Assembly: GCA_027493935.1 (NCBI GenBank)
Contig: JAOSJV010000012.1
Location: forward strand, 390,020 to 454,019
Length of the DNA stretch: 64,000 nucleotides
Origin: Burkholderiales bacterium
GTDB lineage: Bacteria; Pseudomonadota; Gammaproteobacteria; Burkholderiales; SG8-39
Direction of reading: 5' to 3'
Shown: positions 15,905 through 20,573 of the stretch, piece after piece
Layout of the letters: each line of letters starts with the position of its first letter
Position numbering within the stretch: the first letter of the stretch is position 1
Position numbers and translations under genes: made by a program
The notes under the pieces: model-generated
Told to the model about the DNA's origin: nothing
The model's database searches: none
Seen by the model: only the letters and a program-made list of their open reading frames with translations

Positions 15905-17863
15905 TCAGCCCTTGAAAGCGGCAGCGACGCGGCTGCCGACCGCGCGCAGCGCTTCGGTGATCGAACGCATGAGCGTCGCGTCGCCGGACTGCGCCTCGGC
16001 TGTCTTCTTCGGCCGCTCGGTGCGCATCAGCGCCGGCGCCTGCTTGAAGCTGTGGTAACGCTCGAGCGCCGCCACGATGTGGCTCTGCAACAGGGTGAGA
16101 TTCACCGGCTTGTTGACGAAGCGGAAAATGCGTGCCTCGTTGATCAGGCTGATGATCAGCTCGGAGTCCGACGCCTTGGTCGCCACGATCACCAGCGTCC
16201 CGGGGTGCTCGCGCTTGAGCACCTTGAAGAGCACCGTGTTGTCCACGCGCCGCGACTCGAGGTCGGCGACGAGCACCGCCACCTCCCGCTCGGCGAAGAT
16301 GCGCAGCGCCTCGTCGATGTCGACCGCGTGCTCGACGCGGGCGAGATCGCCGGCCATCTCGCGCGTGGCGCGCGCGAGCGCCGGATCGTCGAGCACCACC
16401 ACGGTCAGATCGTCGTCGCCCGTCGCTGTGGCGCGCGGCGGCGGACTCGCCTCGAGCGCGATCGCGATCGTCACCGCTTCGCCCACCGTGGACATCAGGT
16501 CCTCCTGGTTCCACGGCTTGTGGATGAACCGGTAGACCTCGCCGTCGTTGACCGAGCCCACGATCGCCGCGAGGTCCGAGTAGCCGGTGAGCAGTATGCG
16601 GACCGTGTTCGGCGCGACCGCCTTGACCTCGCGCAGCAGGTCGACGCCGAGCATCCCGGGCATGCGCTGATCGCTCACCACCACGTGGAACCGCTCGCGG
16701 CGTACCATGCCGAGCGCCTGCTCGCCGCCGGTCGCGGTGACGACCCGGTAGTTGTCCTTGAAGAGCGCGCGCAGCGCGTTCACCACCCGCTCCTCGTCGT
16801 CGACGAAGAGCAGCGCCGGACGCCGGGTCGCCACGACCGGCGCCGTGGGCACGGGCCCGGCGGCGGTGCCTGCATCCTCCGCCTGGCCGTCCGGGGCGCC
16901 GCCCTGCGCGTCGAGCCGAGCACCGAGCACCCGACGCAGCGCGGCCGCCTTGCCGGAGATCGTGCCGCCGTCGGCGACGCTGCTGTCGAGCGGGTTCGTG
17001 TCCTCGCCGTTCTGCTCCACGGCGAGCTGCTGCGAGACGCGCCCGCGGCTCTCGAAGGCCTGCAGCAGCGCCGCGGCGAACTGCCTGGCGTTGGGGTAGC
17101 GCTGCGCCGGCTCCTTGGCGAGCGCGCGAATCAGGACCGCGTCGATCTCGCGCGGCAGCCGCGGCTCCAGGCTGGAGGGCGGCGGCGGCATGTCCTCGAG
17201 GATCTTCTTCATGAGCGGCGCGCCCTGGCCGTCGAACGGCCGGCGCCCGGTCAGCACCTCGTAGACGATGACCGCCGCGGAGTAGATGTCGCTCCGCTCG
17301 TCAGCGACGCCGCTGAACTGCTCGGGCGCCATGTAGAACGGCGTACCGAGCACCTCGCCCATCTTGGTGAGGTGCGATGTCTCGAGCCGCGCAATGCCGA
17401 AGTCGCTGATCTTGGCGACGCCCATGTCGCTGATCAGCACGTTCGCCGGCTTGATGTCGCGATGGACCACACCCTGCATGTGCGAGTATTCGAGCCCGTC
17501 GAGCAGGTGGATCAGGATCTCGGGAAACTCCTTCAGCTCCGGCCGGTAGCCGGAGCGGATGTGCTCGCGCAGCGCGCGCCCGCTCACCAGCTCCATCGCG
17601 ATGAACGCGCACTCGTCGTCCTCGCCGTACTCGTAGATCGCGACGATGTTGGGGTGGTGCAGCTTGCCGACCGCCTGCGCCTCGCGCTTGAAGCGCTCCA
17701 GCACCGCCGCGCTGTCGGCCGCGTCGAGGTCGGCCTTGCGGATCACCTTCAGGGCGACGTAGCGCTGGATCACCGGGTCGTAGCCCCGGTACACGACGCC
17801 CATCGCACCCTTGCCGAGCTCGCCCACGAGCTCGTACTTGCCGATCCGGGCGACGGCGCTCAT
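15905..17863 (-). CDS. Eukaryotic-like Ser/Thr protein kinase fused to two response-regulator receiver-like domains
   Basis: From ATG 17863: [29 protein letters not shown]...VALKVIRK...[13 protein letters not shown]...DFGIAR...; then [30 protein letters not shown]...[20 protein letters not shown]...ILLTGYSD...FIHKPW (REC); then [21 protein letters not shown]...VLVADLES...FVNKPVN (second REC-like). Confidence 0.9.
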
Positions 17864-19815
17864 CGGGCGGCGGTGGCAGGCAGGCGGTCCGGTACGGACG
17901 CCGCCGCGTCGCCGGCGGCGGGCACCTTCGGCAGGATCACGCGGAAGCGCGTGCCCACCCCGGGCTTCGAGTCGACCTCGATGCGCCCGCCGTGGTCCTC
18001 GATGATCTTGTACGAGATCGACAGGCCGAGCCCGGTGCCCTTGCCGACCTCCTTGGTGGTGAAGAACGGATCGAAGATCCGCGGCAGGACGTCCTGCGGA
18101 ATGCCGTGGCCATTGTCGCTCACCTCGACCATCACTTGCCGGTCGCCGTGGAGCGCCGTGCGCAGCGTGATCACGCCGCCCTCGGCGGGCGTCGCTTGCG
18201 CCGCGTTGGTGATCAGGTTCAGGAAGACCTGGTTGATCTGCGAAGGCGAGCAGCTCACCTTCGGCAGCGCCCCGAACATCGTTCTCACGGTCTTCTGCTT
18301 CAGCTGGTTGCGGGCGATGTTCAGCGCGCTCTGCACGCCTTCGTTCAGGTCGAATTCTGCCACCTTGCTGCGGTCGAGTCGCGCGAAGTTCCTCAGGTTG
18401 GTCACGAGCTCCGCGATCTGGCCGATACCGTGCAGGCCATCGGTCACGAGCGTGCGCAGCTCCTCGAGCCTGCCGTGCCGGTTGGCCTGCTCCACCAGCG
18501 CCGACACCCGTGCAAATTGCGCCGAGAGGTCGGCTTCCGAGCTCGCATCGGAGCGCAGGAGCTCGAGCAGCCGCTCGGCGCCGGCGGCGAGCTCGGCGAG
18601 CAGCGGCATGCGGCCGCTCACGGTGTCGAGGCTCGCCTTCACGTAGGCGAGCGGCGTGTTCACCTCGTGCGCGACGCCGGCAACCATCTGGCCGAGCGAG
18701 GACATCTTCTCGCTTTGGATCAGCAGCACTTCCTGCTCCTTGAGCTGGGCGAGCGCATCGGAGAGCTCGCGCGTGCGCTCCGCAACGCGCCGCTCGAGAC
18801 CCTCGTTCGCCTCGCGCAGCAGCTGGTTGATCCGGTTGATGACCGCATAGCTGCGCGCGAGGCGCCAGCCGAGATAGGCGGCCAGCACGAGCAGCAGGCC
18901 GGAATAGACGAGGAGATAGAGCCGGTAGCGCTCGGCCTCGACGATCGCGTTGCCGAACTCGGTCTCGAACGCCTTGGTGAGCGACTCCAGGCGCGGCCCG
19001 GTCGAGGCGAGCAGCGCGTCGCCGAAGAGCATGCTCTCGGTGCGGCGGTCTGCGAAGGTTCGCCGCGCCGCATCGGCGAACTCGGCGACCGACTCGCGCA
19101 GCGGATCGCCCGCCTCCGGCAGCGCAAGCTGCGCGATCGCGCGCTCGGCCGCGGCCGCGACCGCGGCGCCCGGCTGGGCGGCATACGCGAGCGTCGCCGC
19201 TGTGGCGCGCTCGAGCGCGCGCTCGAGCGCCGCCGGCAGCGGTGTCCGGGTCGCAGCGCGCTCGCTCGCCTCGGCGGCGAGCGCATCGCCCGTCCGGACG
19301 AACCGCGCGAGCGACGCGCGATAGGCGCGGTTGGCATCGAGGAACGCGTCGACCGCGCCGGCCTTGGCGTCGAAGGCAGCGCGCAGCGCCGCGAGGCCCG
19401 GCGCACCGAGCAAGCCACCCATATCGAACGAGCGCTGCGCGAGCTGCGCCTGCAGCCGACCGACCGCCGGCAGGTTCGCCGCTGCGCGCGTCGCCGCGAG
19501 TTCCGCATCGCTCATGGCCTGGGGCGCGAGCCGCGCGCCGATCAGGCGATCGTTCCAGCGCTGATCGATCTCCTTCAACTCGCGCAACGCGCCGAGCACC
19601 TCGTTCGCCGCGCCGAGATCCACCGAGCGCGCCTGGAAGTACAGGTAGAGCCATCCGCCCACGACCACCACTGCGAGCGTCGCCACCGCGAGATAGCGGA
19701 ACGGCCGCCCGATCTGCGCGCCGAGCGCGACCGCGCGGCGCGCGGACGCGTCGGCTGACCGCGCCGCGGATGCCGCGGCTTCGGTGGAGGCGGGACTCGG
19801 CCAGAGTCGGAACAC
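17860..19815 (-). CDS. Membrane sensor histidine kinase
   Basis: [22 protein letters not shown], long helical sensor region, [20 protein letters not shown]-box [19 protein letters not shown]-box [10 protein letters not shown]-boxes VSDNGHGI and [10 protein letters not shown]. Its TGA overlaps the next gene's ATG (ATGA). Confidence 0.92.
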
Positions 19816-19946
19816 GATCGCGGGTCTTGTCTTCTAATCGGCTGTTTTTGTTCGCAAAGTATATGCCAACGCGGCTGCGTCCGAGCCGCGGGCGAGCCTC
19901 CGATCGGTACGATTCCGCACTGCGCAACCCCGCATGTGCGGCGCCG

Positions 19947-20573
19947 CTACTGCGCCAGCGCGAGCACCACGCTCGCTACGTGCTCGAGCGCGTCGCCCGG
20001 CTCGCTTACCGTGCGCACGCCAGGCACGGGCGAGGTCTCGAGCCAGCCGATCACCGGCACGCCGAACTGGCGCGCGAGCGCGACCTCCGACAGAGTCCCG
20101 AAGCCGCCGCCCACGGCCACCAGGCACAGTCCCGCCCGCGCAATGATCGCGTTGCGCGCCGCGCCGATTCCGGTGGCGATTGGCACCGTGACGTAGGGAT
20201 TGGCGTCGCGCCAGTCGCCCTGCGGAAGCAGTCCCACGACCACGCCGCCCGCCTCCGCCGCGCCCTTCGCGACCGCACCCGTGACGCCGGACAACCCGCC
20301 GCAGAGCACGGTGAGCCCCATCTCGGCGAGACCGCGCCCCAGTCGCTCGGCAAAAATCAGCGCGGCGGAAGGCGCGTCCCGCGGCCCGGCCACCGCGACC
20401 GGTGCCCGGCACGGGGCGCCGCTCTCGCGCTGCAGCCAGCGCACCGCGTCGCGCGGCGCGATGCGCTCGCCGCACACCGTGCCCTCGCGCCACGCCCGGG
20501 CGCGCGGGTCGAACTCGCCTCGGGTAGCGTCACAGAGCCGCCGGTTGGTGCGATCGAGCAGCAGCTGAGTCAT
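19947..20573 (-). CDS. LOG/TIGR00725-like Rossmann-fold family protein
   Basis: 208 aa with LCGGLSGVTGAVAKGAAEAGGVVVGLLPQGDWRDANPYVTVPIATGIGAARNAIIARAGLCLVAVGGGFGTLSEVALA. Confidence 0.8.
   Translation of the reverse strand: MTQLLLDRTNRRLCDATRGEFDPRARAWREGTVCGERIAPRDAVRWLQRESGAPCRAPVAVAGPRDAPSAALIFAERLGRGLAEMGLTVLCGGLSGVTGAVAKGAAEAGGVVVGLLPQGDWRDANPYVTVPIATGIGAARNAIIARAGLCLVAVGGGFGTLSEVALARQFGVPVIGWLETSPVPGVRTVSEPGDALEHVASVVLALAQ

Follow-up and report, generated by a model that had tools for sequence, protein, structure and literature searches.

A histidine kinase gene adjoining a gene for a Ser/Thr kinase fused to two receiver domains: a predicted His-Asp-gated kinase module of the Burkholderiales

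Gene layout and domain content of the locus

The window (the whole stretch of DNA analysed here, 64,000 nucleotides) comes from the genome of an uncultured betaproteobacterium (5.19 Mb, 17 contigs) and carries on its minus strand a two-gene unit encoding a DAHL-sensor histidine kinase (HK) and, downstream, a protein in which a Hanks-type kinase is followed by two receiver domains (REC1 and REC2). The HK gene (17860..19815, minus strand) starts with GTG and encodes 651 aa, and the fused gene (15905..17863, minus strand) starts with ATG, encodes 652 aa and has full-length relatives; 60 distinct fused homologues from the same order were examined. That an HK gene adjoins a gene for a Ser/Thr protein kinase (STPK) with two receivers, as the initial annotation had proposed, was confirmed by Pfam domains that all score above their gathering thresholds. 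A longer open reading frame starting at 19927 (15905-19927, 1340 aa) was rejected, as its additional upstream part only reflects the frame staying open in GC-rich DNA. The stop codon of the HK gene (TGA) and the start codon of the fused gene overlap as ATGA (17860..17863, minus strand), and no clear Shine-Dalgarno sequence precedes the ATG, the upstream stretch being just G+C-rich; translational coupling is thus plausible here. In relatives, the two genes lie between -4 and +145 nt apart, mostly by less than 40 nt, indicating that adjacency and order are conserved but that the exact overlap is not. A SLOG cluster4/lysine-decarboxylase-like (LOG-type) gene lies at 19947-20573 on the same (minus) strand, 131 nt upstream of the HK gene.

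The HK contains a DAHL domain (PF19443, residues 67-298, 68.8 bits against a Pfam cut-off of 38) between two transmembrane helices assigned by eye (about residues 40-62 and 301-320), followed by HisKA (residues 374-422, 29.4 bits against a cut-off of 26.9) and HATPase_c (residues 524-630, 102 bits) domains, as in the DAHL-sensor class. The predicted structure is all-helical over residues 23-351, and the DAHL domain is predicted to be periplasmic. The large helical, possibly DAHL-like sensor originally suggested for this HK thus agrees with both the Pfam match and the model. The candidate phosphorylation site, H383 in HisKA, is invariant across 18 aligned HKs. In the dimerisation/histidine region (residues about 383-481; 18373-18669, minus strand), the His helix is separated from a conserved NLRNFARLD segment by a long insert of variable sequence, which is common to all of the HK relatives that were aligned.

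The Ser/Thr kinase domain (17066..17836, minus strand; residues 10-266) matches PF00069 (Pkinase) over residues 10-256 with 166.7 bits, and its VAxK Lys (K39), HRD Asp (D136) and DFG Asp (D154), the sequence hallmarks of a Hanks-type kinase, are all present, as expected if the eukaryotic-like kinase is complete; phosphorylation of Ser/Thr is predicted. The activation-loop T166 is found in 53 of the 60 distinct fused proteins. Among solved structures, the closest folds are those of PknB and PknA (roughly 35-38% identity in PDB matches). Identity as a PASTA-type PknB was rejected: the match to NCBIfam PknB_PASTA (NF033483) reaches 297 bits, below the cut-off of 450, and Pfam detects no PASTA repeats in the fused protein. 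Further, no transmembrane segment could be recognized in it by eye. The kinase is joined to the receivers by a disordered linker (16826..17041, minus strand; residues about 275-346, with pLDDT below 50 over 274-346) that has a median length of about 68 residues, ranging from 41 to 141, across the 60 fused proteins. The AlphaFold model of the fused protein has a pTM of 0.46, which does not allow a trustworthy placement of the kinase relative to the receivers, so that no gating interface is seen in the model.

The Pfam Response_reg match spans two stretches, the better of which covers residues 352-460 (102.6 bits). REC1 (16469..16819, minus strand; residues 349-465) carries D355, D356, the predicted phospho-acceptor D398, T426 and K449, and all five are invariant in the 60 distinct fused proteins. 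By NCBIfam, REC1 comes closest to a NosR-family regulator (NF053512), an assignment that was rejected, since that family is defined by a whole-protein cut-off and a c-di-GMP phosphodiesterase output, whereas the match is confined to REC1 and reaches 192 bits against a cut-off of 400. In REC2 (16052..16408, minus strand; residues about 486-604), the window protein has all of the corresponding residues (D492, D493, D534, T562 and K585), and both receivers thus have the full residue set of a response regulator there. Across the 60 fused proteins, D534 is always Asp, the positions of D492 and D493 are Asp in 46 and 26 (the latter position being alignment-sensitive), that of T562 is Thr or Ser in 59, and that of K585 is Lys in 55. 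In the AlphaFold model, both receivers follow the alternating beta/alpha order of this fold, with D534 ending the third strand of REC2 and T562 ending the fourth. The tandem of receivers first noted here is therefore present, but REC2, then described as more divergent, is not strongly degenerate in this protein. Because the five REC1 residues never vary, whereas the REC2 pocket does, REC1 is likely the main phospho-acceptor.

The same observations bear on a second possibility, namely that the receivers are a dimerisation or localisation module that brings a constitutively active kinase to the membrane HK, with the phosphoryl group setting the place rather than the rate of kinase action. The long disordered tether and the variable REC2 pocket would suit such scaffolding, as would a fused protein that has no apparent transmembrane segment of its own. 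However, invariance of all five REC1 residues is what a phosphorylation switch predicts, and we consider localisation as the sole role of the receivers to be quite improbable; it should be noted that this possibility overlaps with gating of the kinase by receiver phosphorylation more than it excludes it.

Three congeners have both genes in intact form, with 82-90% identity. When the window gene was compared with those of the congeners, dN/dS was 0.06-0.12 for the kinase domain, 0.05-0.11 for REC1, 0.10-0.15 for REC2, and 0.47-0.65 for the linker, which points to purifying selection on the kinase and on each of the two receivers. The arrangement is thus not due to chance, given that it is intact in three congeners and that dN/dS is low in all three domains. 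An inactive kinase, or a fusion that is a decaying relic without present function, had nothing in its favour and is exceedingly improbable in light of the kinase-domain dN/dS, the invariance of K39, D136 and D154 in all 60 distinct fused proteins, and the spread of the fused form across about 14 families.

Distribution and origin of the fused form

A total of 43 of 299 genomes from the same order (about 14%, representing about 14 family codes) encode the fused form, as called by frame length with a direct domain check of nearly all. Culturable relatives such as Ramlibacter albus GTP1 (locus L061) and strain GR16-43 (L121) have the same module. No fusion was confirmed outside of the order among 369 genomes sampled across the class, where matches were bare REC-REC proteins (i.e., proteins lacking the kinase), mostly of 300-350 aa. 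A GTDB scan gave at least 585 relatives; among the 80 best of these, fused forms belonged only to records named as Burkholderiales, Betaproteobacteria, Ramlibacter, Gallionellaceae or unclassified proteobacteria, and bare forms came from Gamma-, Alpha- and Betaproteobacteria, Chlorobiota, Ignavibacteriota, and Bacteroidota. The full module was not found in the plasmid collection, where the matches, in two Caballeronia replicons, covered just part of the kinase domain. These data bear out the suggestion that this domain order beside an HK is uncommon, as it is confined to a single order in the genomes sampled.

A single long frame outside of the order, in a genome (G442) from another order of the class, was rejected as a fusion, since it represents a bare HK/REC-REC pair with a separate STPK gene downstream. 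In this prfA/prmC neighbourhood (L141, 640-5179, minus strand), a moeB-like gene follows the bare pair, and a separate gene for a membrane STPK comes next; the locus may be an unfused counterpart of the fused module or a coincidence.

On the tree of REC1-REC2, the fused proteins group inside the bare ones, with 2 label changes versus 23 in shuffles, and the two bare rows close to the fused group (L082 and L130) are long branches. The HK tree agrees with this, and most of the bare REC-REC proteins also have an adjacent HK. When the fused kinase domains were compared with other STPKs of the order, a single change was needed, with 25 of 26 rows in one clade (value 97, starred); the placement of L061 is unsettled, and a group of all 26 has a support of just 71. 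The receiver, HK and kinase trees are quick trees without bootstrap. Trees and neighbourhoods place the window pair in a family defined by an HK gene followed by a homologous REC1-REC2 region. Taken together, these comparisons suggest that a Hanks kinase probably joined the N-terminus of the regulator of an older HK/REC-REC system, once, in Betaproteobacteria, with recruitment of the added kinase from the STPKs of the order being the economical reading. An ad hoc pairing of an HK with an STPK was rejected, since the HK/REC-REC part appears to be an old two-component system, found widely, that later acquired the kinase.

The position of D534 in the bare REC1-REC2 relatives is occupied by Asp in 27, Glu in 24, and Asn in 7 of 63 proteins. 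Its invariance in the fused proteins argues that REC2 may have kept or regained a strict Asp only where the kinase is attached, and that REC2 matters there. The bare proteins are a more varied set, however, and the fused ones a single clade, such that the association of D534 with the kinase is a correlation rather than an independent test.

Bare HK + REC1-REC2 systems, including those of Comamonas testosteroni (L079), Pseudomonas mendocina (L119), Rhizobium nepotum (L093) and Solimonas (L098), resemble the window pair in having homologous HK and receivers, encoded adjacently in the same gene order, and a DAHL sensor is detected in part of them. They also occur in Chlorobi. They differ in lacking the kinase, in often having Glu or Asn as the REC2 acceptor, and in not lying beside liv operons. 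A functional study of such systems was not found in the literature searched. In Candidatus Achromatium palustre, one HK gene is followed by three tandem bare REC1-REC2 genes (L072, 7958-10923, plus strand).

Pairing with the histidine kinase and gene neighbourhood

An HK gene lies directly upstream, on the same strand, in all 66 fused entries, which reduce to 60 distinct loci once copies of the same contig are removed, and a DAHL match is found in the HK of 65 of the 66 entries (59 of the 60 distinct loci). Distances among HK cores and among receivers are correlated (r = 0.81 over 26 modules, uncorrected for species relatedness), although the fused modules represent one gene family and this co-divergence therefore partly reflects shared organismal history. 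More telling, three genomes (L051, L063, and L067) have two tandem modules each, which fall into the same two clades in the HK and receiver trees, each HK sorting with its own neighbouring receiver protein.

Crosstalk between two-component systems and STPKs is usually described as modification of an HK or a response regulator by the STPK, and the anatomy of the module points the opposite way, with an HK upstream of a Ser/Thr kinase. Wiring in the usual direction would make the Ser/Thr kinase an accessory that modifies the HK or the receivers, the real output being a target bound by REC1-REC2, as in the bare relatives, to which no effector is attached. Bare REC1-REC2 and HK pairs are widespread and presumably function without a kinase, and STPKs are documented to modify HKs and response regulators (StkP, PknB, IreK/CroS; PMC12189002). 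However, the kinase is fused at the effector position, D534 is invariant only in the fused forms, and no conserved third gene that could serve as an alternative output was found near the pair across 22 fused loci, where apparent shared neighbour clusters were rejected as antisense copies or clade-specific synteny. Wiring in this direction is thus considered unlikely.

A LivF-like ATPase gene is located just upstream of the HK gene in 20 of the 60 distinct fused loci. At one of these loci (L059), the order is binding protein, LivH-, LivM-, LivG- and LivF-like genes, HK and kinase-REC-REC, with the transporter genes being nearest to liv proteins by NCBIfam at scores below the family cut-offs. 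No liv-type ABC gene was found beside the HK in the bare loci scanned, nor does the window's own genus show such a link. Since the module is encoded together with a branched-chain amino-acid-type ABC importer where the two adjoin, the likeliest input in those cases is a nutrient signal (amino-acid-like); an amino-acid-like identity of the transported ligand is a guess from the transporter family. The association provides a lead to the input. At six loci (L051, L063, L067, L155, L156, and L160), a liv-type ABC gene is directly followed by two HK + kinase-REC-REC modules in tandem.

Proposed signalling route and relation to known systems

The reading that we favour, and hold to be probable though well short of certain, is that of a two-gene module in which phosphorylation of REC1 by the HK gates the fused Ser/Thr kinase. 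Judging from domain content and topology, the membrane HK would bind a periplasmic ligand through its DAHL domain and, given intact and invariant catalytic motifs, would autophosphorylate on H383. The phosphoryl group would then be handed to D398 in REC1 of the cognate fused protein, a predicted transfer that is strongly supported by gene adjacency, co-divergence and invariant residues. Phosphorylation may alter the REC1-REC2 tandem, with the flexible tether of roughly 70 residues relaying the change, such that the state of the receivers determines how active the N-terminal Hanks kinase is, whether it dimerises or where it is located; REC2, as a retained second receiver, could be a second acceptor or a structural or dimerisation partner. 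The kinase, activated through its T-loop (T166/T174), would phosphorylate Ser/Thr of targets, which would render the two-component output post-translational rather than transcriptional. The chances are about even that the modules in their entirety constitute a family of His-Asp-gated Hanks kinases, that is, a hard-wired His to Asp to Ser/Thr relay that was built once and that acts as a liv-tied nutrient switch in several families.

No description of the HK + kinase-REC-REC architecture was found in the open full-text literature searched, although surveys of response-regulator output domains may already list REC-Pkinase combinations, and the word 'receiver' does not occur in the available part of a 2005 survey of prokaryotic STPK architectures (PMC1262709). 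The module is real and conserved, and apparently it has not been described before in the open literature that was searched. As read here, it is an enzymatic-output form of two-component regulation, a principle with precedents. The fungal, Greatwall-family Rim15 is likewise a nutrient-linked Ser/Thr kinase with a C-terminal receiver; it differs in having one receiver, the Asp of which is replaced by Glu, Ala or Gly in Ascomycota, and the role of that receiver is described as unstudied (PMC8510515). Rim15 also belongs to a eukaryotic phosphorelay and has no adjacent HK gene, and as far as can be told the two architectures are independent. In Pseudomonas aeruginosa, according to the summary in a review (PMC12189002), the HK PA2824 phosphorylates the receiver of PA3346 and thereby stimulates the attached Ser/Thr-directed enzyme, although that output is a Ser/Thr phosphatase rather than a Hanks kinase, and the single receiver is N-terminal. 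Going by a title cited in PMC1262709 and PMC2176072, cyanobacterial HstK likewise combines Hanks kinase and HK signalling; there, STPK and HK domains share a single polypeptide, whereas in the module the HK would act on a separate kinase-receiver protein. Finally, PknB/PknA-type Hanks kinases have the same kinase fold and motifs, from which the window protein differs in having C-terminal receivers instead of PASTA repeats or a transmembrane segment.

The module would illustrate how a post-translational output can be grafted onto an old two-component system, and it is one inherited module in about 14% of the sampled genomes of a large order. It also offers a clean test case, with a single HK and a single substrate protein, two Asp residues as candidates, and kinase activity as the one read-out. 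The genome from which the window derives encodes about 15 Hanks-type kinase genes, one of which (L007) has a C-terminal BON domain.
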